From assembly GCF_000002985.6 (NCBI RefSeq), contig NC_003284.9, positions 6,572,001-6,636,000 on the forward strand: a stretch of DNA of 64,000 nt, written 5' to 3'. The translations under genes were made by a program, and so were the position numbers. Origin of the DNA: Caenorhabditis elegans (taxonomy: Eukaryota; Nematoda; Chromadorea; Rhabditida; Rhabditidae). The notes beneath the pieces are model-generated. The model made no database searches and had not been told where the DNA came from. It saw only the letters and a list, made by a program, of their open reading frames with translations. Shown piece by piece: positions 1 through 36,970 of this stretch; the first letter of the stretch is position 1, and each line of letters opens with the position of its first letter.

Positions 1-1538
1 AAAAAAAAACTGAAAATGTTTAAAAATGTTTATTGTTAATTAAAACGCCACATGATTGGTAACAATATTTTAAGAAAATAATCTTTTAAAAATTAACAAA
101 ACACTAGTAGATTAACTCCGTAAGAAAAAACATAGTCTAATACAAGAAGCTGTATGTACGATAATTGTGCTTCTTATTTTAAAAAACTAAACTTGATTCA
201 GGTATAGTTCAATTGATAATAAGCGACATATAAAGTACGTGGTACTACTAAAATTATCCTACTCATAAGTATTCATTGCAAAAAGTGTTGGTTATTGAGA
301 ATTCCGAACTACGGTTTTTACTGCAGCACAATGGGCGTGTGTTCTGCTCGAAATTTTTTTTTGATTGTAGTTGGAAAATGTATGCTTTCTCGTATTATTG
401 TGCTCTATGTTAACTATAATTTTTTTCGGGAAATGTTAAGTCTCAAAATCTAAAATTCGCGTTTGGTTTTGGTTTTGTAGCAAAGGTGGGAGGAAATTTT
501 GGAATTTTTGACAATCGAGCAAAGAAATTCAAAAGTTGAGCAAAAAAGTGGTGTTTTCCTTTTTTTTAACAGGTGTAAATAAATAATTTTTTAAACAGGA
601 TGAACTGGCAATTGCCAAAAATAAAAGAAAACAAAAAACTTTGGAATAGCAAAAAAATTCAGCTTGTCGCCGAACTTTCTTTTCACTATAAAAAATTCAA
701 ATTTCAAGTGTTTGGAATAAAAAATAGTGGAAAAATTGGCCTGGAATGGATTAGGACCCGATGCGATAATGACAACTTAGTTTTCAAAGCGGATAATACC
801 GTAGGATCAAGTGAAGGCGTGCTGACAGAGCAAACAGATGGAGGAAACTTGAAAACAAAAAGACGAAGTAGAAGAAATTTAATAATTTGGGGACTGCAAC
901 GTTTTCAAGCTTAAGCAAATGAAACTGATTCATTCATCGGATGATGCTGAAAAGGAAGAAGTATGAGGAAAAAAAGAAAATAAATGTTTTAATATCTCGA
1001 CTATGTATGTGTGGATGGGGTTGTGTCTGTTTTTATGGAAAAGCGAATGGGGATCTTGAGAATTGGGAGGAGAAGCAAAGAAACCTCCGCATTTCAATGG
1101 TCTGCTTTTCCAAAGGCGGCGTGTGCTTCACGAAAATGGAGGACGACGGCATCGGCGGCAGCGACCGATGAAGGCGATGGCAGGGAGGGCGCCCCCAAAT
1201 AGGGACGACGATTGAATGTGGAAGAACACTGATTTCGTCGTGTGGAGAGGAGGACTCAACAAAGTAACACGAATCGACCCTGGACCCCAACAAGAAAAGG
1301 AAGACGACAAGGAGGAGCCCCCCCCCCCCCACCTCCTTAATCATCGCCTAACAATTTAGATAGAAACGAAACCTAAAGAAATTGAGAAGAGGAGCAGATT
1401 GGGTCGGGGTTTTGGGTTTGACGTACTAGGAAGTGGGTTGGAGCTGATCCTGACTCAATCCGCCTATTTGACTAACTCGCATTTTGCCAAGTTTTTCTTT
1501 ACGCTCAGGTTTTATCAAGGTTTCAAACATTTAAAGAT

Positions 1539-1835
1539 AAAGTACGGCCTGTGGGAAAACAATTAGAAACCAATTTTTATGATGCTGAAATAAGTAAATA
1601 TTGAAAAAAAAACCGTTTTTTTTTTTTGAAAAATCACAAAAATATTTTGTACCAGGTTTATGTTTTAAGTATGTTAAAAAATTTTATATTTCAACATTTC
1701 AGAAGTTCGAATATGCGATAGTGCTTTTGATTTTTCCAAAAGTAACGTAAACTCAGTTTCACAATATTTTAACTTAAAATAGAAACATTTTCAACCATTT
1801 TCATTTTGATATTTGGACAGAACTACATACTTTCA
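1539..1835 (+). repeat. Degenerate copy of a MITE-like repeat
   Basis: The left end (near 1539-1600) reads like the left end of the copy at 2915-3300: a TGGGAAAA block, then ATTAGAAACC, then TATGATGCT. An internal block with the word AACTCAGTTT is shared with the copy near 40,088-40,462. The right end is too worn to place exactly. Boundaries are approximate. Confidence 0.4.
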
Positions 1836-2914
1836 AAATATGGGAGAGTGAAAGTTTTTACTCTTAAATTGAAATATTCCAATTTAAAAAAAAAGCCAAG
1901 CTAACAAATTTTCTAATTCTCAATAAGAAATTCATAATCTTGTACACACTTGATCTGAGATATGCAAATGAAAAAAAGCTGATCCGGAATAAGTGCAAAC
2001 TAGCTTCCTTACACAGGGGTCGATTACACCAAACGGGGACGCATTTATCAAAAATTCCAAATGCAAACACTAATTTGTGGCCTACGCACTTTTTGCCTCT
2101 CCACTTGCGGCTCATTCTTTTCAGGTCAATCTTTCTGTTCTCACTTCCGGCCGCTTGACCAGGTACATTGAAAATCGGAATAACTTCAACTATGACTTTG
2201 AATTTTACGGACCACAAATCAGATTGAGACACTCGTGGTGGTGGAAAGTGGTAGGAACACACAATACACACAACCACCGCTTATTTCTCCAACTCTCCAC
2301 GCGTCATTCATCAATGAACGGCTCCCGGCGGGAGCAAGGCGCGGCAGGGGAAAAAGTAACAGAACAAGCGGATCAAAGTGATGATGGAGATATGAGATGT
2401 GAAAAATAGCAAAAAACAGGGATATAAAACAAGGGAAAGAAGATAATTTTCCATCTTTTTTGTTCCATGCTTGCCAGCGTGCTCCGTCTATGACATACGA
2501 ACGGACTGCGTCCGTCTTGTCAGGTTGCTATCAGTCCCGTGGGGAGTCATAAACCACAAGATAAATCTATGAAAGAACATTTTTTGACTAGAAGAAAAAG
2601 ACTAATATTGGGGAGATTGATGAAGCCTAGTGGCAGAGCACGAATGCGCTGCACAGACAAAATGGGTAAAGAAGAAAAAACTGTACTTCTTTTTGCAAAG
2701 CTCATTCGTCTTGCTCTGCCTGCGGTCGAATTTTATGGCTGTTGAGTACATTAGAAAATTGGTGGAAAACGGAAGGAAAGTTTATAGGGTGTGCTTCGCT
2801 TGATTCTAAAACCATGACGTGCACAAAAGTGAATGCAGAAGTATTTTGAATCCAAAAAAAATTCACGTTTTCAAAATTTGTAACATTACAGATTAACTAA
2901 ACAGTTTCCTATCA

Positions 2915-3300
2915 AAGGCATGGTCACTGGGGAAGCAATTAAAACCTATTTCTATGATGCTAGAATTAATAAATGTAAAAACAGCACTTCTAAAAAATAT
3001 TTGGAGTTTTTTATTTCGAGTCAAAATGTTGAAAACTGACTTAGTTTGCGACATTTTTTGAGAAATATAAGCATTTTCGCATTTTCGAACTCTCTCAATA
3101 TTGAAATAAGAATGTTTAAACATAATTGAAACATACAACTGCAAGATAATTTTTTCGATCGGCGACTTCCAAAAAAATTGGTGATAAATTGTTAACTCGA
3201 AAAAAACAACTTCCAACATTTTTTGAAACGTTTTTTGATGATTTGTAGTCATTTTAGCACCATAGGAATGGTTTTAAGTATTTTCCCACTGGCCGGACTT
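2915..3300 (+). repeat. MITE-like repeat with ~45-bp inverted ends
   Basis: The two ends are imperfect inverted repeats. The left (about 2915-2962) runs GTCACTGGGGAAG..ATTAAAACC..TATGATGCT; the reverse complement of the right (about 3254-3300) runs GGCCAGTGGGAAAA..TTAAAACC..TATGGTGCT. The inside is AT-rich with no coding capacity. Similar copies lie at 1539-1835 and in reverse orientation at 40,088-40,462. This is what a non-autonomous DNA transposon family looks like. I could not name the family or see a clear target duplication. Confidence 0.5.
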
Positions 3301-6300
3301 AATTTTTTGAAATATGTTTACTAGACAATTACCGTAATTTAACAGCTGATATCTCAGTTTCAGTTTGTTCAATTCAAAAATTATTAACTAAAAGTATTAG
3401 TTTTTTTCGTATTGTATTCAATTATTTAAAATTAACCTAGTTATGACTATTTAAATTTGGTATTTGGGTGCAATGTTATTAGTGGAAATACAAAAATATT
3501 TTGTAAGCTAATTTTTATATGAACAAAAATATAAAATATTCAACAAAACTTTTTTGATCTACTTTTGCGTCATTGTTATTCCACTTAAGCAGCCCTCTCC
3601 ACAAATTACTTCTGCGGGAACATTTCATTCATATAACAAGTCTCAAAATGTGTCTCAATTGTTTCGAGAGCTTCTCACGTGAATTTGTATTTGAGGAAGG
3701 ATGTTTTGTACAATCAGAACTTTCATCAAATAGAAGTGAAAACATAAGAATGAGGAAAAATGTTTCAAAGTGACTATCGCAAATTACTTAATTCAAAAAA
3801 AGTGTTTTGCATCTCAACACAGGTAGAATATGTATTTTAGACAAAAGATATGAACGGAAAGAAGCGATTCCGGCCTTTGTGATTAGCGTATCTAGATAAA
3901 AATATAGTCAGAAAGTGTTATGTTAGATGTGAATGTACCAAAAAAACAGGAAAAATATATTGCGAAGTTAGTTGTGTGTGTCAAGTAATTTATGTTCTAC
4001 TAAACATGTGAGAGATGGGCGAGAGGAAGCGGTGATGATGATACAAAATCAAAAAGTGCGTTCGCCAGGTGTCAGTTGGCGGATAATGATAATTTATCAA
4101 GCAGCTTGACGCCAAGTAAATTAGAAGCGGAGGTGAAACTCAATTGACAGGAGGCGCCGCAAAATTTTCTTTTGCGACTTGGCATCTTCAGTGTCTGTTT
4201 TTTTTTGTTGTTTGAAATATTACAAAATCAACTCAACTGATATGATGATGACTGCTTCCTCCTTTCTTCCTACATTCCCAGAGACATTGAAAGAAACTAG
4301 CCGATTAGATCGCACAGAAACAAAACAAAAAATAGCGAGGAAAAAAATACATGTGGTGTGCGTGGTTGTGGCGGGCCGCCGTCGCCGCCGGCCTGATTTA
4401 ACCAAATTATAAACGACACAAAATACAATAGAAACTATGATGCATGTGTCTAAGAATTTCCTAGACCTTCCCCTTGTTGGCTCACATTCGCAGAAGCAGC
4501 CACATCACTTTGGTTGAAAAAGGCGAGATGGAAATAGAAGTATAAAAATAATTTTGAATGAAATATTTTTGTAAATGACATTGCCTGAAAAAACACGCGG
4601 AAAATGAGCTAGATCTGACCATGTATTCGATAAATTTAGACAATTTTCTAAAGGCTAGTTATGAGTCGAAGAGTTCAGCTCATCGATAGCCTATGGCTTC
4701 TTCTCTGAGAAACTATGACTTCTATCAAACTGCCTTATAACATTGCATCACACATATACCTCAAGTTCTATGAATGGCTTTTAATTGGAATAAAGTAATC
4801 ATACAAAGAACCAGTAAACAACAAAAAAACATAGCGCAACTGATAAAAGATGAAATTGAGAACGGGTCACCTCCCTATCGCTGTCATTCATGCAGAAACC
4901 ACGCAAATGAGCAATGAGCTTCACGTATCTTTTGTGAAAACCTTCAAAGAAAAAGATAGACACGCCGTGAAACACTCGTCGCCACAATTGCCAATTAGTA
5001 GATACCATCTCTTTGAGCACAAAAAATGTCGGAGTCAAGATCAAGACAACTCAAATTGTACCAAAGGGAGGCTAGACTTTCAGGTCTTGTTCGAAAAGGA
5101 AATGTTCAAGAAATGATATTTTGTCCGCAATGTTTTGAATATTATGATAAATGTGAAATCATTAAACACCTTAATCAGTGATCTGAAAAATTACGTAGTA
5201 AAACGAATCAAAAAGTTTTTGAAATTTTTTGTGTACAGTCATAATAATCCCAGAAAATGACCAAAAAAAAACTACGAGGTTTAACTCTTAATTAGATTTT
5301 TCAAATTAAAACATTCTAAAGGGTAGTGCTCAAAACTTTGTGAAAAGTCTCTTTTTTTGGAAAAATTGGCAGATTATTAAAACTTACTGAAAAATTAATT
5401 TTTCACATTTTATTCTGACAATCATATTCGATCATTTTACATGTATTGTGGAAAATTAGGGAAGAATGAAAAAGAAAATAGCGTCAAAACATCATTTGAA
5501 TTTTTCAAAAAACTCATCTTTCTGGACTATTTCTGGTTATTTCATAGACCTTAAAAAGTTAAAACTTAAAACTTAACAATTTGCGTTACAAGTTTTAATC
5601 GCCTACCTACAGCCTTAGTCATAACTCTGGCACTGAAAATATTTTGTTGACAAACTAAGAAGCTTTCGCAAAAATTATGAGCACCTGGAGTTTACAAAGA
5701 AAACTGAAAGGCCCTCCAAATTCGTATAAAACGACTTTACTCCGCTCCAAATGTGACCCACAAAACCAGGGAGGCGGGCCGAGTAGTCAATTTAGAAAAA
5801 GTTCAGTGAGCACTATTCTCTTGAAAAACTGTCAGAATCATGAAGCTGTCCGCCGCATATGTCTGGTTTTTACAAACTGAAAAATCGTAGAGAGAGAGAT
5901 ACACCATTCCTTCTTCTCCGCCCCATTCGAAGACGTCGTTCGCGTTTTTTCAACAAAATTCTTCATTGAATAGATATAAGGAGATGTGGGCATCGGGGGG
6001 CACCACCGGCATTGGCATCATGTTCAGACAAAAAATCCAATGGAATTTATTTGTGCCGTCTTCTTTTTTTGCCGTCTTTCTGGTAGTGTTGGTGCTCTGT
6101 GGGGCTTTGATGGATTCCAACTCATAAACCAAAGTGAAAAGAAAATGGATGAATGGGCAAGGAGGAGTGAGTGTGTGGAATCCATAAAAAGAGCATGCGA
6201 ACGAACGAATGAGCTGAATCCTTGTTTGATGATGAATTCATTTGTGTATATGGACAAAAAAAAACCAATAGAAAAAGGTAGAGATTTTCTTCACTTGGTA

Positions 6301-21000: not shown

Positions 21001-23996
21001 TGTTTCGTTCAGGCCAAATTATGGTGGAATTCAGGTATTCAAGCCTACATTTTGAATATTGTTTTTAACCAATCTTTTCAGGTGAATCCGCAATGCATAG
21101 ACCACTTTATTCAATTAATTGGAACTCGATTTTCTGAGTTAAGAATTGTGGAATTGGCTACAGATTTGATCACGCCAAATGTTCTATATGAGTTGGCAAA
21201 TAAAGCTCCAAAACTTCAATACCTTACTCTGGGTTTGCATTTATTAAATGTGTTTTTTAATGATATGTATTTTTGCAGATTTTTCAACAGCCATGCAGCT
21301 TCACGATTTCACAGATCTTCAAAGTTTCCCATCTCGCTTAAAATCGTTGACTCTTTGTCTCTCGGAGAACATTTTTCTTGAGGGATTCCTTCGAAAAGTG
21401 TACACTTTTATTTCATCTGTTGAAACGCTCCATATCATTGGTGAGTGTATTTTTCTTTCTTTTTTTTCCTTCACGCATTGCTGTGCAAACACGATTTGAA
21501 AATAAGACAGATAGAGTAAAGAGAGAAAAGAGAAAACATGTACGTGTGGTGGGAAAAGAGGAATGTCTATGGTTTACTAAAGTAGGGAGACGACTGCCTC
21601 GATAGCTCAGTTGGGAGAGCGTACGACTGAAGATCGTAAGGTCACCAGTTCGATCCTGGTTCGGGGCATTTCTTTTTTCTTTTGTGAACTTTTTCACTTT
21701 TTACAGGAACTTATGAAAAAGTGGAAGATGAAGAAGAGGAAGTTTACGAAACGGTGAACGTGTTCAAATTGAAACAATTTTTGCCAAACTTGCGAGTTGT
21801 AAATCTATGGGGAGTCCCATTCATAACCGATGAACATGTTGACGCAATTTCATCAAACTGTGCTCATCTGGAATGCCTGTGTGTAAACTATTGCCCAAAA
21901 GTAACTGGATCTTGTTTGAAACTAGTACTTCAGAGATGCAGGAAACTGAAGACGCTATTTCTTGCTCACACAAGTAAGTAAGATGGCATTCTGTGAATTT
22001 CCTATCAGATTTATTTATTAAATTTATCATATCTATCAGATTATTAGATTTGATACCTCTATTAGAATTTAGTTAATACTAGAGGTGAACTCACTCGGTC
22101 ACTAGAAGCAATTGGAAACATCATGTTTTAACATGGTTTTATTTTTTATTGTTTATTGAGAACTGATAGTCTTTTTAATAATTAAAAAGTTAAATTTCAA
22201 AAAGATATTTTTGATTGAAGAATAACTATCCTTTCTTTTGAAATAATTTATTGAAAAGTAGTTTTATTGGACTGAAATTGCATGCAATACTTATAGGGAA
22301 AATACAAAATTCAAAAGTTTGAAGAATTAAAAAAATACTGAAGACCACGAAATGCACATTTTTCTTCATTTAATAGTAATCCCTTTTATTTGAAGGGAAT
22401 TGTCAAAAATAACAATTTTCAAAAACATTTGAAAATAGTTTTGCGTAAGTTGTTGGAACATGTTAGTAAATTCAATTGAAACTCAAATAATTTCCTATTT
22501 TAGCCTAAACTAGCCTCAAAATAGCCCCAAAAGACCGAATATTTTAATAACACTTTAAAAACAAATAAATTAAACTTTTTATTTCAGATTTTTACAAAAT
22601 TTGGTAGTATTGGGTCATTTTGGACCAATTTAAGCAGAAAAAACTCTACAATTTTAGAACTCGACAACAACATTGTCAAAATGGTGGACTGGGAGAAAAC
22701 ACGCATTGAAGAGCTTGACATAAAAGGTACCGAACTAAATTCCGACGCGCTTATCTCAATTCTCACTCGGCTCCCTCATCTTCGTTGGTTGGACGCCAGT
22801 TGGTTGGAATGCATGACTGATCAAGTATTGGAAGCATGGCAGAACTCAAATGCAATGGGAAGCCTGCAGTTCTTGAACATGGATACATGTGATTCGATCA
22901 ATGAACAAGCGCTTGTTGACATGATCAAAAGACACGGGCACCAATTCCACGGACTTTGTCTGGGAGGACAACACAAACTTCTTGAGTATTTTTGGATGAA
23001 TATGATCCCACAATTGAGAAACATTAGGTAGGATGTAAACAAGAAAATACACAGCGCATCACATCAAACACCAGAAATGATATTAGAAAAGTTTATTGAA
23101 AACTGAAAATCGGTGACCGTAAAAATCAGAGAAGAAAACGTTAATTTTTCATTGAAAGTAGTTGTATTTCAAAGTGTAAAAAGTGTAACTCAAATGATCT
23201 TATAAAGATGACCTTCAAATGTCCTTGAAAATTTTAATAGATTCTAACTACTGTATTTCAGGTCACTTTAAGATTTCCGAAAAAAATGAGTGTTTTGAAG
23301 AAGAAGAACGCTCAATTAGATTTCATTACAGAATTTAGAAATAAGAAAAGCACTGAACCACAAAAGACCAATTTGAAAAAGGAGAAAAAAGTACACTGAA
23401 TTTTTTCTGATCAGTTTTTTTCTGATTCAAAGTGCCGCTAAATTTTTTGTAGCAACCTATTTAAAAGGTCCTTTTTCAAATGACATAATTTGCTTTAAAA
23501 AAATACTAAATAATAGCAAGTAGTTGTTATGGTAATACACTTCAAAATTGTACCGGAGTATGAAAGGAAGCGCTACAGAAACATTTCAGAGTAATGGTTA
23601 TGGGAATAGCTGAAGACTGCTGCCCAAAAGTGGTTGCAAAAATCCATGTTGATCAATTCGTCGACTGTATCGCTCAGAATTGTCCAAGACTGACCCGTCT
23701 TGAAGTGAGATGGGACGATGAAACTCTTAGATTCTCAGACAAATCGAGGTAAAATACATCAAGATTGAAAACTATAATCTTCAATAAAGCTAAGTTGTTC
23801 CAGTAAATTCATTGACGTGCTCCGTATGAAATGTCTCATGCTTCATTCAATTGTTCTTTCCGATGGGCAATACTATGAACTGGTGCGTAGCAACTTTGAG
23901 AGGGCAGATCGAATGTCGGTTGTTAGGACAACAGAAATGTGCCGTACTGGACTACTTCATTGCTCCAGATACTTCAATAAACTTCTCTTTAACTGA
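15002..23996 (+). CDS. F-box and leucine-rich-repeat protein, several first exons
   Basis: A likely substrate adaptor of an SCF (Skp1-Cullin-F-box) ubiquitin ligase. The shared core is exons 20824-20886, 20933-21034, 21082-21232, 21279-21440, 21707-21973, 22658-23027, 23590-23748 and 23804-23996. Exon 20824 opens the F-box (EKLPDKVLRDIFQYLSP), completed by VGLVCKRWRVTSQNPLLW. LRR-like blocks follow, such as LRVVNLWGVPFITDEHVDAI and LECLCVNYCPKVTGSCLKL. Long isoform: exons 15002-15032, 15081-15165, 15824-15959, 16935-16997, 17822-17974 and 18326-18400 join the core in phase, about 669 aa. Short isoform: ATG in exon 20588-20728, about 535 aa. A third start (ATG 16834) splices in phase to 16935. 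All core junction phases agree. The extra N-terminal region is basic and matches no domain I know. The tRNA gene at 21596-21668 lies in one intron. AATAAA is at 24118. Confidence 0.82.
16834..16872 (+). CDS. Alternative first coding exon of the F-box gene
   Basis: Thirteen codons (MLDLFRSKGEAKV) ending at a good donor (GTAAGC). The exon is in phase with the exon at 16935 (FQYANLKEYGAVV). The exon body has a stop upstream in this frame, so it can only be a first coding exon. It has its own acceptor at about 16,810. It would give an isoform lacking the first three exons. Confidence 0.45.
20588..20728 (+). CDS. Alternative first coding exon of the F-box gene (short isoform)
   Basis: Encodes a 47-aa acidic N-terminus (MTAIYDMTRRVTMHDV, then an Asp-rich stretch) and is in phase with the F-box exon at 20,824. 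The ATG is five bases after an acceptor (AAAGTTCAG), typical of an SL1 trans-splice site, so this exon probably has its own promoter in the GC-richer stretch at about 19,800-20,080. Confidence 0.6.
21596..21668 (+). tRNA. tRNA-Phe (anticodon GAA)
   Basis: A 73-base intronless tRNA. The acceptor stem GCCTCGA pairs with TCGGGGC (one G-U) before the discriminator A. The D arm holds TAGCTCAGTTGGGAGAGC, the anticodon loop is CTGAAGA (GAA), and the T arm is CCAGTTCGATCCTGG. A box and B box are intact. A T-rich pol III terminator (TTTCTTTTTTC) follows directly. It lies in sense orientation in the intron 21441-21706 of the F-box gene, so pol II and pol III transcription overlap here. Confidence 0.96.
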
Positions 23997-24569: not shown

Positions 24570-25117
24570 TTAGTGAATACAGTCACGGCTCTCTCCTGGG
24601 TATGATCCGGCAAGTTGAATAACTCCAGCGTCATAAACCTTCTTTGGGACCTTTCCTGACGAGGTGTAAGAATCTGGGATCTTGATTCCAAACTTTCTCT
24701 GGCATGGCTTAATTCCGTCATTGCAGTCGTGGTAGATGTTCAGCTTGACGTCAATTGGGGTATATTCCTTAGTCCATCCGGCAAGGTGGAAGTCTCCATT
24801 TCCATCCGTGGTTCCAGAATCGAGAAGATCATCAGAATCCACTAAAATTTTAAATTATAGATATTCTTATTTACAAGTGTGCAATTAAGTACGATTAATA
24901 ACTCACAAGTATCCTTATCCCACAGTTTTACCAAAACTCCAGAAGCTGGTCGACCATCACAAATCAACTTTCCACGAACCTGAAAACAAACTTTAAATTA
25001 AATACTAATAAATTAAATAATTGTCAAAAAACTTACAGCAGAAGACTGATCGCGACCAAACATTTCGATGGAGGCAGCAACGCCGAAAAGTGCACAAACA
25101 ATAAGAACTGAACGCAT
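24570..25117 (-). CDS. Transthyretin-like family secreted protein
   Basis: Three exons (25117-25037, 24979-24907, 24841-24570) give 141 aa. A signal peptide (MRSVLIVCALFGVAAS) precedes a nematode transthyretin-like domain: VRGKLICDGRPASGVLVKLW, then SGTTDGNGDFHLAGWT, LNIYHDCNDG and a C-terminal ESRDCIH. The domain covers nearly the whole mature protein, as usual in this large nematode-specific family of small secreted or hydrophobic-ligand-binding proteins. An acceptor (ATATTACAG) ends two bases before the ATG and looks like an SL1 site. From memory of C. elegans gene order this may be ttr-6; I cannot confirm that, so I leave the symbol blank. Confidence 0.93.
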
Positions 25118-26045: not shown

Positions 26046-26701
26046 TTATCGGTATTCCGAGTATGCTCCATATCCAGTTGCACTTCCAGATACTAGTAGT
26101 AAAAGAAATGAAAGAATTGTAGCAGCCAAAGTGATTCCCCATGACCATCCGAGCTGAACAATCACACTTTTAAAAAATTGAATTTCAAAACTAATTTACC
26201 TTTAACGAAATCAATGCGTTGTAATAGAAGCTTCCAATATTTGCCGCGAATACAATGATGGAAATAAGAAGTAAAATGAATATGATCAAGGAGAGAAGAG
26301 TACACGCTGCATGAACCGGCATCATTCTTCGGAAAACTCTGTAAAGTAAAATGATATAAGTTGTCTTCAATTTCACTTGTCTTAAACTTTACTTACATTG
26401 CAGGTATGACAAGAAGACAAAACAAGAGCTCAAATGAGAATGCCATTAATTGACAAACCACGACACATTGCAGCCACCCCGCACTTCTTTGGAAACTTCT
26501 GTTCGCGCCTGCCTGTCCCCATTGATAAATTCCCATGTGCAAGTTTCCAGAAACACCCCAATCTAGGAATAAATTTCGCATTTCAGGGAACGACAATTTG
26601 CCAAACTTACAATTTGTAAAAGTTCCCACTCCGGTTAGTATTGTAACAATAATCAGAAGGCCAGCAATGGCGAATGGTGCGTGATGGTGATGATGATGCA
26701 T
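26046..26701 (-). CDS. Claudin-like four-transmembrane protein with His6 start
   Basis: Four exons (26701-26611, 26562-26397, 26338-26200, 26153-26046) give 167 aa. The protein starts MHHHHHHAPFAIAGLL. Four hydrophobic segments follow: IAGLLIIVTILTGVGTF, WLQCVVVCQLMAFSFELLFC, ACTLLSLIIFILLLISIIVF and LGWSWGITLAATILSFLLLL, then a short tail (YSEYR). Topology and length fit the claudin/PMP22/EMP superfamily as found in worms. The first loop is short and carries a GIYQW motif. The ATG is preceded by AATTTCAG, a likely trans-splice acceptor. The first intron is 48 bp and keeps the frame open if retained. It is paralogous to the gene at 27,856-31,198: the TM4 exon starts LGWSW here and LGWSY there. 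Confidence 0.82.
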
Positions 26702-27855
26702 TTTGTGACTGAAATTAACATTTTTTAACCGGAAAAATACTTACAGAAAAGATAAAAAAGATATAACAGGTAGATCAAATTATACTTACGTCATTGTGAA
26801 ATAGTTCAGAGTAGTTTGTGGTTTGAAACTTTTTACGTAACTTGAGAAAACAGAAACTAAAAAATCGTAGGCATCCTGAGCTAATTTCATTTATTTTGTG
26901 GCAACCCACTCGGATTCGTAAAAACTTTAGGACATCATTCGATTTTATGTAATTTAGGAAACGTGCAAGAACATGTTTTCTGAACAAGTAAAAAATAGAA
27001 AGCATTTTTTGAAGTCAGATAATCATTTTTCATGCTTATATAGTGTACAGCGGTTCAACTCGACTTTGTGAGATGTTTATCTGGAGTGAGTCTAGTGGCT
27101 TTCGATAGAATTTTCTACCGGCATTTAAAAACGTCATTACTTGGTTACTTTAGTTTATCTAACTCCTTAGGTTAAGTTCGAAACAATCCTTACGATAGGA
27201 TACAAACTAAATCTGTATAGAAATAAATGGGAAATAAATAGGAAAAAGCTTTTTTGGAATCTTTAACTGAAATTATTACTTGAAAAAAAATTATACTTTA
27301 CAAAAAGCTCGATATACAAAGCTTTAAGTGTGACAGAAACTGCACAAAACTAAAATTCGACTATTTTTCTCGTCAAATAATAACAAAGATAGAAGATCAT
27401 CCAAATGCCGACCTTTCCTGTTAGTTGACATTGGATAGACTGAACTATATTTCTTTTTGATCCACTATTTGAATATGATCCACAATTTTGAAATGTCCGC
27501 CTCTTTGTTTGTTCAGTGAAATCATAGTGATAGAGTTTTCGTGAAAAAAAAATCCTCGCCCTACAGTTTGCTCTCTCATGATTTACCATGTGTGAAACTT
27601 TAGTGTAAATTGTCGCGCAAGCTGAATGATTCACTTCATGAAATCGGTTTATTCATAAAAGTATACAACGACTTTATCGAAAAAGGTGACAATATGAAAG
27701 AGAGTTATGCATATTCATATTCAGAGTCGTGATTTCACAATTGATACAAATAAAAATGAACAATTTTAAGAAATATACTAACAGGTCAGAGGAAAAGATG
27801 ACACAGACAAATGCCAAGTCACGAACTAAGAAATAAAGCATCACGCACGAGCATT
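26702..27855. other. Intergenic between two claudin-like genes
   Basis: AT-rich DNA between the start of the first claudin-like gene and the last exon of the second (both minus strand). It probably contains the promoter of the former and the 3' UTR of the latter; AATAAACC reads on the minus strand near 27,647. No coding exon recognised. Confidence 0.4.
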
Positions 27856-27989
27856 TTACATCGTGAACTTCCAAGTGGCCATCGCTTCTGGAGGGAGCGA
27901 CGATGAAGTGTAGCCCATATTGCTGTTGAGAAAGATTTGAACGGTTTCAAGTGATGTGCAAAGAATTGAGATGATTATGACCAGGACAC

Positions 27990-27992
27990 TAA
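27990..27992. repeat. Left target-site duplication of Tc4 (TAA)
   Basis: TAA precedes the left tip (CTAGGGAG), and TAA follows the right tip at 29,617-29,619. The rebuilt empty site is CTAAG, matching the known Tc4 target consensus CTNAG with TNA duplicated. Confidence 0.9.
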
Positions 27993-28228
27993 CTAGGGAG
28001 TGTTTTAACTATGTGGTGCGATCGGGTAAAAGTAAACGTGTTATGCGATAGCTGGCGTTTTAGGCTTTCAGAATCTGTGATTTGTTTCGGCAGAAGACCT
28101 CTGTGAGTCTGGAAATTTTCATCTGAAAATGTAGTACTGAAATCAGTGCATTTCCTATGGTTAACAGTGGATTTTGTCTCTGGCGCCAACAGAAGTCTCA
28201 CCACAATGGTGGAAGGGTGAAATCATCG

Positions 28229-28295
28229 CTTCGGTGGTCGAGTGGTGAACGCATTCGCCTCTTGAGCAAAAGTTTGTGGGTTCGGTTCCCACACA
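28229..28295 (+). other. tRNA-like segment with pol III boxes, left Tc4 arm
   Basis: A box TGGTCGAGTGG (28,235-28,245) fits the eukaryotic consensus fully. B box GGTTCGGTTCC (28,279-28,289) fits at ten of eleven positions. The T arm is perfect (GTGGG, loop TTCGGTT, CCCAC). The acceptor stem does not pair and the anticodon stem is poor, so I do not call a functional tRNA. It could drive pol III transcription of the arm, or be a relic of tRNA capture. Confidence 0.6.
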
Positions 28296-29314
28296 TGGTT
28301 TAAATTTTGGCCTTTTTTTATACAAAATTTTTAGAACGGGAAACAAATGTTTAAAACAGTTTTTTGAGGTTTTTACATTACTTTTTTGCTTTTTGATTGA
28401 ACCACAATTACCCTGGAAACTTTTCAGAAATTTTTATTTTTTCGAAAATTGCCACTTTTTTCTCCACCAAACTCCACCAAACCATGAGAAAATTGGTTCC
28501 AAAAATTTTTTTTGAAATTTTTTCAAAAATGTATGAAATATTGTAGAGTGTCACAAATAACTTATTTTTCATTGTTTTCAATGACCGAATCACTTATTCT
28601 GATGCCGTATCAAGACGTTTTACCAAATCGATATTGGCAAAACACCTTGTCTTTGAGACTCCATATCTCCGCAGGAAAAAATTGCGCTTAAAAGTGATCA
28701 ACTGAAAACTTGTTAAACACAATGTGATCTAAAACTTTTCAGTTAAACACTTTTTTGTAAAAAATTTGGTTGCTGAGATATAGACCTTTAACTATTTAGA
28801 AAATTCAAAAATAATGAAGCTCAAATCAATTGGTTCCAACTCGGCAACCAAATTTTTTACAAAAAAGTGTTCAACTGAAAAGTTTTAGATCACATTGTGT
28901 TTAACAAGTTTTCAGTTGATCACTTTTAAGCGCAATTTTTTCCTGCGGAGATATGGAGTCTCAAAGACAAGGTGTTTTGCCAATATCGATTTGGTAAAAC
29001 GTCTTGATACGGCATCAGAATAAGTGATTCGGTCATTGAAAACAATGAAAAATAAGTTATTTGTGACACTCTACAATATTTCATACATTTTTGAAAAAAT
29101 TTCAAAAAAAATTTTTGGAACCAATGGTTTGGTGGAGTTTGGTGGAGAAAAAAGTGGCAATTTTCGAAAAAATAAAAATCTCTGAAAAGTTTCCAGGGTA
29201 ATTGTGGTTCAATCAAAAAGCAAAAAAGTAATGTAAAAACCTCAAAAAACTGTTTTAAACATTTGTTTCCCGTTCTAAAAATTTTGTATAAAAAAAGGCC
29301 AAAATGTAAACCAT

Positions 29315-29380
29315 GTGTGGGAACCGAACCCACAAACTTTTGCTCAAGAGGCGAATGCGTTCACCACTCGACCACCGAAG
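29315..29380 (-). other. tRNA-like segment with pol III boxes, right Tc4 arm
   Basis: Mirror copy of the left-arm segment: A box at 29,364-29,374 and B box at 29,320-29,330 on the minus strand. The two segments point inward, toward each other across the loop. Confidence 0.6.
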
Positions 29381-32300
29381 CGATGATTACACCCTTCCAC
29401 CATTGTGGTGAGACTTCTGTTGGCGCCAGAGACAAAATCCACTGTTAACCATAGGAAATGCACTGATTTCAGTACTACATTTTCAGATGAAAATTTCCAG
29501 ACTCACAGAGGTCTTCTGCCGAAACAAATTACAGATTCTGAAAGCCTAAAACGCCAGCTATCGCATAACTCGTTTACTTTTACCCGATCGCACCACATAG
29601 TTAAAACACTCCCTAGTAAGCCAATATGACCAACCAAGATGGCAAAATACTGTTAGACCATCGTAAACATACGTTTCTGAAAATGTATATTTTCCAAACT
29701 TCGTTGCTCAAAACTTATACTTTTATATTAACCAGTTAGTTTAAAAAGTGTGTGCAGTTGAAAACACAAAGTACTTCAAACTTTCACATATTTTATATTG
29801 TCTGAAGTAGGCTTCTTCATTGAAGTTTCAACATAAAAGCTTGGTGAGCGATGGTTTATCAGTAATAAAATATGATTTGTAAGGATTGTAATGAAACTGA
29901 AAAGAGTCGTTTATGTGCTGATACTCATCAACAAAACGGTAAAAATCCGTTGGCACAAAACCAATAAAGGTGCCTGATAGTAACATTTACGCTACTTTTC
30001 TTTAACTATCAATGTTGCTGTTTTAGGGATCATCTGTGTTTTTCCAGGTTAAACAACTTCATTCTAATCTTTGAGCAGTCAGTCAATGAATTGGAAAATT
30101 CTTGAGCCAATAAAACAAACACCTTTCACACTTGGGTTGCCAAGCCCTCATCGTTTTTTTTTCGATAAAACAAACATGTTATTTACATAGATAAGTAAGA
30201 AACACCTCTCTTGTTTGTCTCTTTTCTAGATTTTTTCTTCTAGTAAGATCATTGGTCGACTAATTTCAAATCAACAATAACAGTTGCTCATGACCTACCG
30301 GTTGGTGACATTTTGATCGTTTACTATCCTGGAAAAATATTTCCAATTTTTCAAAATAATTCTCTCCCTTTTTCAGTTTTTTTTTTGGGATGGGAAGTTT
30401 TTTAAACTTTTGAGCTAAAATTGCTTCTAGAATTTAAGGGCTGAACTTTTAAATCAGTTTTAAAGACACACCAAAATAAACTGGTTTCGCTTGTCCTCCA
30501 AAAATACCAATTGCAACCGTAATCAGTAAGAATCCTGTGAACGATAGTGCGGTGCAAACAACCGAAAGGTAATGTTTTCCGCTTTTGATGAACCTCAATT
30601 GATAATGGTCATCTAATGAGATTGGTTGATTGTATTATTTTTTTGTACTTACAAGGAAACGATAGCGCACATGCATAAGAGACATTGCATGGCCAACCCA
30701 AAGCACATACACGTGAATACAGATTTGAGCCAACCAGGAAAAAGCTGAAAAAGTAAATATAATCCGAAAACTTAATAAAGAAACAAACTGGATATTTTGC
30801 AATGCAGTTTCGGTCACTTATATCTTTCTGGTTTATGCAAACCCATTGCATTAATCCTCGGTGTAGATAAAGGTCATGTCCTTTTGGATTTTTTACCTCC
30901 ACGTCTACCCAATCTGAAAAAAAATTGTTTTCAAATCAAAACTAGCAAACTCAATTTCTGAAAAAAAAAGTAGATTAGTTGTAGTAGTAGTTCTGTATGT
31001 GATACTAACACATGAATATAAGGCGTAGAAACAAAACCATATCAATTCAGAAATAAAAACATTTTTACAAATTTATTGTGAGTGTTAGTAAAACAACTTA
31101 CGATCTGTGAACAGGGATGTAGTAGTCAGTGCCATTCCAATAATTGTAAATGTCAACGAGCAATATCGCATTACATTATTCTCAGGGACTACAGCCATTT
31201 CAATTCTGCAAAACAAACATCTTCATTCTATACTTTAAAATCCAAAACGGTATAGTTAATGTTTTGAGAGTGTGAAATGTTTCCTATCAGTTATTCCCCT
31301 TCTTTGCCGTCATTATCAATGATTTATGCGGTTCTCGACTGGGTAAGTTTTCCGGCTTGTTTGCTGCAAGGGCGCAATTATGTCAAATTGGTATACACTT
31401 ACTGAATACGAAAACATGGAAAAACTGTCGTTTTACTACTTTCTGCTGAGAGTATCTAGTGTAGGCAACTGAACTAATAGGGTGTGTGGACTTCATTTAC
31501 GGAAGCTTCTAATTGGGCTTGATCCAATTAAAATTGTGCATGTTTAAGATTTTAAGAATTCAAATAATCAAAATTGAGTTTCCCGATTTTTTGAAATGCT
31601 GGAAGCTGACATTTTTTGAAAACAATTGTCGGAAATATGTATATATGGTAGTTATCCGAAACGTACGTCTTTCTAGCCACACTCGAATATGATTTATACA
31701 TGAAATATTTATGTGAAATATGAACCAATGTAGAAGTATCTTAAAATGTTCCAACGCGTCATTTTGAATATTAAAAAACATACATTCACATCGTTATTGT
31801 AGTTTTTTAGAATTAAATTAATGATTTTTGAAAACTCCAAATGAAAAATTAACAATTTTTTCTCATTTTGTTTGGGAAAAAAATTCGTAAAAAAAGTTTG
31901 ACCGTGTGGTAGAGTTGAACTGTTGAACTCTGATGTTTCACGATAGTTACAAATGAATTGAAAAGGTATGTGTACAATGATTTTAAAGTTTTTCTTTATA
32001 AAACCCCAGTGAAACAATTGATATATTAAAGTCCTCGGTGAGTGTGACTTAATTTTGTTTGTTTTCAGGCCTTTTTTCTGTCCCATTTTTTTGGCAAAAA
32101 AAATTCATAAACAAGATTTGACCTTACTCAATTGTTTTCAAAGTTTTTGATATTTTTGGGAAAGTTAAGCTGGTTAGAAAACTTGGAGTATTATTATATA
32201 TCTCAAAAACTTTTAGTTTAAAGAATAAAAACAATGATACAAAATTATTCAACATAATTTTTTGTGTATTTCTGGAAAGTTCTGGAAAGTGTTGTTAATT

Positions 32301-35251: not shown

Positions 35252-36970
35252 ATGGTAGGCTTTTGAACTTTGAAGTAATTTTTAGAGAAAATTTGAATTC
35301 TAGAAGACGTTGCTCTTCCTTTCCTGCATAGTGGTAGCAGCTTATTGCGCATGCAATGATAACCTTGAGTCCGTTTTGGGTAGGTTGGATATTGATGAAG
35401 CTTTCTGAAAATTTCAATTTATTAAGACAAATATCGCAATCGTGAAATTGACTCAGAAGCAGCTGAGCTTGACGGAGATGACTTGATCGACTATGTCAAT
35501 GAAAACCAAAATCTTTGGACGGTAAACTTATACTCACAAAATATTCATCTAATGGATTTTTCAGGCTAAGAAACAAAGACGTTTTTCATCGGTCTACGGA
35601 GAGAACGACAAGGCGAAATGGGGATTGATGGGTGTCAACCATGTCAGACTTTCTGTTAAGGTATGCACATCAAATTTGAATTCGGTTATTTGAAAACGTC
35701 AATTGTTTTGATTGATAGACGGCTTATCACAAAATAGAAGAGAATCAGACTGAAACATCAGGTGATCAAGTTATAGATAGTGATCTTATATTCAAACAGT
35801 GCCTATCACTTCACTCACGTGCTCAACCATTCCACCCAAACAGCACTTTTCAGGGCAAACAACACTTGTCCAAGACCAAGGATCTCGATTTGGACATTCC
35901 AGAAAGCTTTGATTCTCGTGACAATTGGCCAAAATGCGATTCCATCAAGGTCATCAGAGACCAGTCAAGCTGTGGATCCTGCTGGGCTTTCGGAGCCGTT
36001 GAGGCAATGTCTGATCGTATTTGCATTGCTTCCCATGGAGAACTTCAAGTTACACTTTCCGCTGATGATCTTCTCAGTTGCTGCAAAAGCTGTGGATTCG
36101 GATGTAACGGAGGAGATCCATTGGCTGCCTGGCGCTACTGGGTGAAGGATGGAATCGTTACTGGATCAAACTACACCGCTAACAATGGGTGCAAGGTACA
36201 AATAGTACAAGAATAAAAAGATTTCAAACTAGAACCTAACCTTTTTCAGCCATACCCATTCCCACCATGTGAGCATCACTCGAAGAAAACCCACTTCGAT
36301 CCATGTCCACACGATTTGTACCCAACTCCAAAATGTGAAAAGAAGTGCGTTTCTGATTACACTGACAAGACTTACTCCGAGGACAAATTCTTTGGCGCCA
36401 GCGCGTACGGAGTCAAGGATGACGTTGAAGCCATCCAGAAAGAATTGATGACTCACGGACCCCTTGAGATCGCTTTCGAGGTTTACGAGGATTTCTTGAA
36501 CTATGACGGTGGAGTCTATGTTGTGAGTTGTACTGTTATTTGACATAAAAACCTGAAAAAAAAATTCAGCACACCGGAGGAAAGCTCGGAGGAGGACACG
36601 CCGTCAAGCTTATCGGATGGGGTATTGACGATGGAATCCCATACTGGACAGTTGCCAACTCTTGGAACACCGACTGGGGAGAGGATGGATTCTTCCGTAT
36701 CCTGAGAGGAGTTGATGAGTGTGGAATTGAATCTGGAGTTGTTGGAGGAATTCCAAAGCTCAATAGTCTTACCTCAAGACTTCACAGGTGAACTTTTCAG
36801 CTATATTGCACGTGACATCTAAAAAAAATATGATGTGATTTCGTTTCATGACTCCCATGCCAATGCCCAATTTCCTAAACGGAAACCTACTTTTTATCTA
36901 CTTAACTACTAAACCAACTTTTTTATGTTTCAGACACCACCGCCGCCACGTCTACGATGACAACTACTGA
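35252..36970 (+). CDS. cpr-6: Cathepsin B-like cysteine protease CPR-6
   Basis: Eight exons (35252-35254, 35304-35379, 35427-35521, 35565-35660, 35854-36195, 36250-36522, 36570-36787, 36934-36970), all in phase, give 379 aa. Exon 1 codes only for the initiator Met. The signal peptide starts [17 protein letters not shown] propeptide runs to about residue 100 and the mature papain-fold (C1A) domain starts near [12 protein letters not shown]. Catalytic residues are visible: oxyanion Gln127, Cys133 (in CGSCWAF), His305 (in GGGHAV) and Asn325 (in ANSWN). The occluding loop with its His pair (CEHH, residues 211-214) marks it as cathepsin B-type, so carboxydipeptidase activity is expected. A basic His-rich tail ([12 protein letters not shown]) ends the protein. 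Lysosomal or gut-lumen protein digestion is the likely role, by family. Confidence 0.96.

Follow-up and report, generated by a model that had tools for sequence, protein, structure and literature searches.

The locus analyzed here raises the question of whether the sequenced strain can still make a working protein from a claudin-like gene, hereafter gene B, whose last exon is split by a transposon. The gene lies in a stretch of 64,000 nucleotides (the window; positions 6572001-6636000 of contig C6, probably chromosome X of Caenorhabditis elegans), in which all positions are given unless another locus is named. Genome searches covered 100.3 Mb in 7 contigs.

Gene B was modelled from the sequence alone as a five-exon, minus-strand claudin-like gene (31198-27856) with exon phases that join. 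Exon 1 (31102-31198) contains the start codon and the first helix, with a modest hydropathy peak of 1.37, and ends at the donor GATC/GTAAGT. Exon 2 (30789-30913; acceptor TTTTCAG, donor CCA/GTTTGT) encodes the first extracellular loop, in which W...GLMQWVC...C was recognized by inspection. The second helix (peak 2.33) is encoded by exon 3 (30653-30744; acceptor TTTTCAG, donor CTT/GTAAGT), and the third (peak 2.17) by exon 4 (30472-30593), which has a weak acceptor, AATTGAG, and the donor TTG/GTGTGT. The part of exon 5 that precedes the insertion (29617-29676) follows the acceptor TTTTCAG/AAACG in a phase matching exon 4 and ends LGWSYWL. This acceptor places the likely exon start, which the original prediction had not given, further upstream and adds ETYVYDGLTVFCH ahead of LGWSY. 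The part after the insertion (27856-27992) encodes the remainder of helix 4 (SVLVIIISIL...; peak 2.20), the C-terminal tail, and the native stop, and is open in the frame of the empty site.

The two parts of exon 5 are separated by an unstranded palindromic Tc4-like transposon of 1624 bp (27993-29616), which starts CTAGGGAGTG and finishes CACTCCCTAG. Its arms, of 785 and 777 bp, are 98% identical and enclose a loop of 62 bp. A copy of the target-site duplication TAA is present on the left (27990-27992) and on the right (29617-29619), as had been predicted, and removal of the element together with one TAA leaves the empty site CTAAG. Long, near-perfect inverted arms around a short loop and a TNA duplication within CTNAG (here TAA within CTAAG) are features of the Tc4/Tc5 group. 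The site and the duplications point to the insertion of a putatively non-autonomous, palindromic Tc4-like transposon at a CTAAG site in the codons for helix 4, just after LGWSYWL.

The reading frame of gene B was compared with and without the element. The empty-site product has 209 amino acids and four hydropathy peaks (1.37, 2.33, 2.17, and 2.20), and reads LGWSYWL-SVLVIIISIL across the junction; the claim that excision of the element and one TAA restores the LGWSY frame was thus borne out, the CTAAG site being open to the native stop. The proposed counterpart in the neighboring paralog was also found, in that the last exon of gene A (26153-26046) begins LGWSW. Gene A (26046-26794, minus strand; exons assigned by script) is an intact Claudin_3 gene of five exons whose helix 4 starts at this motif, and it scored 34.7 bits against Pfam Claudin_3 (PF06653), over the curated cut-off of 28.7. 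For gene B, the Claudin_3 score was 27.7 bits for the empty site versus 23.0 with the element, neither reaching the cut-off. The Clc-like score behaved similarly (20.8 versus 17.1), while that for Claudin_2 ran in the opposite direction (19.4 versus 20.4). Gene B is claudin-like, yet under the curated Pfam limit. Four helices, a W...GL.W.C...C loop, and LG[WY]S before helix 4 were found together in gene B only without the element, as judged from hydropathy for the helices and by inspection for the motifs.

Open frames of 44 codons as hydrophobic as the restored segment, defined by the first 12 residues being at least as hydrophobic, occurred at 26 of 123,538 positions (0.02%) elsewhere in the window (both strands outside 27,700-29,800, coding and non-coding). 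At other Claudin_3 loci, LG[YW]S was found to open helix 4 in 11 segments, a count that covers motif-bearing segments only; these segments were chosen by eye from 21 rows after two from the window itself, seven without a helix of the right kind, and one duplicate were dropped. Against a helix-4 profile of these 11 sequences, the empty-site version scored 13.6 bits, the version with the element 12.9, and gene A 3.4. The test proved weak, as the empty-site score was reached by 88 of 500 sequences in which the post-insertion part had been shuffled. Since so many shuffles score as well and the version with the element scores nearly as high, residue order alone is no proof of family membership, and the post-insertion part is best described as looking like a membrane helix.

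With the element in place, the frame of gene B ends inside the transposon at a premature stop codon (29558-29560, minus strand), at bases 57-59 of the element in the reading direction of the gene. Read-through appends 19 foreign residues after LGWSYWL, giving a product of 184 amino acids with the first three hydropathy peaks only. At the DNA level, the encoded protein is thus predicted to lose helix 4 and the C-terminal tail, and a four-helix protein deprived of one helix would most likely misfold. Folding of the element RNA gave a near-complete hairpin (97.5% paired), and a transcript carrying this 1.6-kb fold-back structure in its new 3' region would probably be degraded, edited, or silenced. 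Because the element cuts off helix 4, a working gene B protein is probably missing in the sequenced strain. We consider it most likely, from the structure of the locus, that this strain carries a natural loss-of-function allele of gene B. The insertion is a clean case of a well-known type of natural knock-out, and the mechanism is an ordinary one.

The main rival to the loss-of-function reading is that gene B still works, the element being removed from the pre-mRNA as an intron, with the hairpin joining its flanks and weak sites at its edges being used. Tc1 insertions are reportedly spliced out through weak sites at their edges, as described by Rushforth and Anderson in 1996. Among 572 donor/acceptor pairs (26 x 22 sites), 28 keep the frame open to the native stop; VLVIIISIL is kept in 14 of these, and LG as well in 8 of the 14. 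The pair 29630/27989, for instance, would put C in place of WSYWLS (LGCVLVIIISIL) and matches the donor consensus at 5 of 9 and the acceptor consensus at 4 of 7 positions, equal to the weakest sites in the gene's own model, and the pair 29609/27989 (donor 4, acceptor 4) would yield LGWSYWLTRDVLVIIISIL. All 8 pairs are nevertheless weak, with donors of at most 5 of 9 and acceptors of at most 4 of 7, whereas the gene's own sites score 5-7 (donors) and 4-7 (acceptors), and no acceptor with at least 5 of 7 consensus matches was found in the exon after the element. Stronger acceptors (28137, 28123, and 28109) lie inside the element, and stop codons in the helix-4 frame separate them from the exon. 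The highest-scoring pairs rely on donor 29672 and would need a 4-base exon, and none of the 572 pairs restores the original sequence. The suggestion that the gene may depend on splicing out the element was therefore unsupported, only weak pairs keeping helix 4 and none doing so exactly, and we regard continued function by this route as unlikely.

Two further explanations appear far less probable. Firstly, a truncated three-helix protein with a basic tail (TRECFNYVVRSGKSKRVMR) might be made and have a function of its own, as the frame is intact as far as the new stop. However, a claudin-type protein has four helices, the Claudin_3 score falls when the element is present, and the hairpin that follows the new stop would be a likely target of decay or editing; a functional short form thus seems very improbable. 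Secondly, the post-insertion exon might never have been part of gene B, helix 4 being supplied by another exon or the gene having been dead already. The weak shuffle result for the helix-4 profile is compatible with this, as are four nearby hydrophobic stretches, of which two lie within intron 4, with peaks of 1.76 and 1.52, and the others downstream, near 27,799 (peak 2.15) and near 27,247 (peak 1.52). The TTTCAG acceptors in these regions, however, are only those at 29897, 29677 (exon 5 itself), and 27267, and joining exon 4 to 29897 or 27267 leads to stops after short tails, in frames other than those of the hydrophobic stretches. None of these four weak candidates for an alternative helix-4 exon is joined in frame by a TTTCAG acceptor, the only type of site tried. 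Moreover, the LGWSYWL half is encoded ahead of the element and, once the frame is restored, leads into an open stretch of hydrophobic residues, and we give this explanation very little credence. Least probable of all, and hardly to be expected, is that the claudin-like promoter now drives a Tc4-like 1.6-kb hairpin whose double-stranded RNA silences Tc4-type elements, the allele being kept for that reason.

The loss-of-function reading agrees with the core of the original prediction, namely a Tc4 insertion in the helix-4 exon of a claudin-like gene: the transposon, the helix-4 exon, and the open remainder of the frame were all recovered, but the identification with classical Tc4 was not. Similarity to Tc4/Tc4v is seen in the near-perfect 1.6-kb palindrome, the CTAGGGA ends, and the TNA duplication within CTNAG. 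A genome search with the element gave at least 109 matches, a number in which the two strands of a single palindrome may be counted separately, and 20 other places were compared with the element in the window. Both ends were found by similarity in 9 of the 20 copies, 8 of which had equal TNA flanks and CTAGGGA-type ends. By a script that requires TNA, paired ends were found in 15 of 21 copies (the window element included), and 13 of the 15 lay in CTNAG.

The inner arms of the window element were 88.5-90% identical to those of three copies (L054-L056), whereas over the outermost 140 bp the identity was only 57% (86 of 150 aligned columns). Compared with another copy (L047), the inner and outer arm were both about 96-97% identical. 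Primers for Tc4v are listed in the available text of PMC6829131, and each matched five places in the genome with zero mismatches. One of these five places, L078, has CTAGGGAATGACCAG ends as in L054-L056, and the assignment of L054-L056 to classical Tc4 is made through L078, the ends of the other four primer places being undefined. At all five, the arm matches reached query position 1642 of 1845, short of the outer arm. The difference in the outer arms ruled out classical Tc4/Tc4v as the identity of the window element, which is best called, from its arm sequences, a sister family of Tc4.

The element is too short for the transposase region present in long copies. A long copy with the same arm type (L058; G000:C5:6417100-6422700, about 641-4934) spans 4.3 kb and has arms of 1033 bp that are 100% identical, with transposase-like frames between them and an altered right end. 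Its transposase fragments scored 22.5 bits for HTH_Tnp_Tc5 (cut-off 22.2) and 20.6 for DDE_1 (cut-off 22), and the frames of L058 and L078 were alike by eye. This copy is likely an autonomous-type relative of the window element, and a related transposase may have been supplied in trans.

A related copy of 1168 bp with TTA duplications was observed elsewhere (L062; G000:C4:16551400-16553800, element at 586-1753). It sits in a collagen-like minus-strand frame (...GNEMEDQVS / ...CCSCGVGAAGPPGA), and the G-x-y repeat continues in different frames. The two flanking pieces gave no Pfam family at an E-value of 0.05. This locus looks like a second broken gene, as judged from its frames.

The age of the insertion in gene B was estimated from its arms, which differ by 12 substitutions. 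Seven of them are isolated (columns 47, 87, 228, 311, 437, 754, and 783), and five lie close together at 494-500, next to a length difference of 8 bases. Five of the seven isolated differences were absent from all 11 other arms aligned, and those at 754 and 783 were also variable among other copies. The mutation rate is 2.7e-9 per site per generation; at this rate, 5 to 7 changes over some 1,560 bases allow an age of no more than about 1.2-1.7 million generations (roughly 1-2 million), which is an upper age only, as the arm differences could be inherited from the source copy. Such inheritance or conversion between the arms could shift the age in either direction. Over this possible age, the approximately 630 coding bases of gene B would be expected to gain only two or three neutral changes. 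That the remainder of the frame is open therefore says little.

Two other copies (L046 and L047; 1614 bp), located on different chromosomes, carried identical sequences in both arms, including five differences between the arms, which suggests that they may have moved very recently from one source. Since these two are identical, the window element is not the youngest-looking copy. The insertion had been described as recent, and this was not demonstrated, given the seven isolated arm differences, five of them private, and the younger appearance of L046 and L047. A very recent or laboratory-era insertion found no support, as the arms differ by 12 substitutions. In the laboratory strain Rec-1, Tc4 positions were reported to be identical to those in WormBase (PMC2837035); provided that the sister element was included in that count, this agrees with stability of the insertion in laboratory lines.

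Comparable insertions have been described in C. elegans. In wild strains, 240 of 2,246 classified transposon insertions in protein-coding genes fall in coding sequence, and reference transposon copies absent from wild strains have also been described (PMC5850821). In CB4856, 70 large deletions were explained by transposable elements (PMC4023591). A derived insertion breaks col-182 in the laboratory strain N2, the gene being intact in wild isolates (PMC7341120). Both col-182 and gene B are genes of the reference strain broken by an insertion, but that in col-182 is 8 bp long and was shown to be derived by population and species comparisons, whereas the case of gene B concerns a transposon in one strain. 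If the reference strain lacks gene B and wild strains keep it, phenotypes measured in the reference strain would carry a hidden background mutation, as with col-182. In addition, the site is well suited to asking what becomes of a transcript that carries a long hairpin, namely whether the structure is edited, removed by splicing, or processed into small RNAs. The available text of PMC9635669 contains nothing on the insertion site in gene B. No paper on the insertion was found among those listed by a literature search that included Tc4 together with claudin-like and the coordinates of the element, supplements and WormBase lying outside its scope; the insertion may already be annotated in WormBase.

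Several other features were noted in the window and the genome. A tRNA-Phe gene (anticodon gaa) was found at 21595-21669 on the plus strand, and an exon of a transthyretin-like gene at 24573-24854 on the minus strand (PF01060, 67.7 bits). An exon of a papain-family cysteine protease was identified at 35719-36213 (Peptidase_C1, 100.4 bits), which we take to be probably cpr-6; C25B8 is presumably the clone name for this neighboring cathepsin gene. Claudin_3 exons at G000:C3:8336856-8347907 appeared twice, about 8.2 kb apart and with equal scores, pointing to a possible recent tandem duplication.
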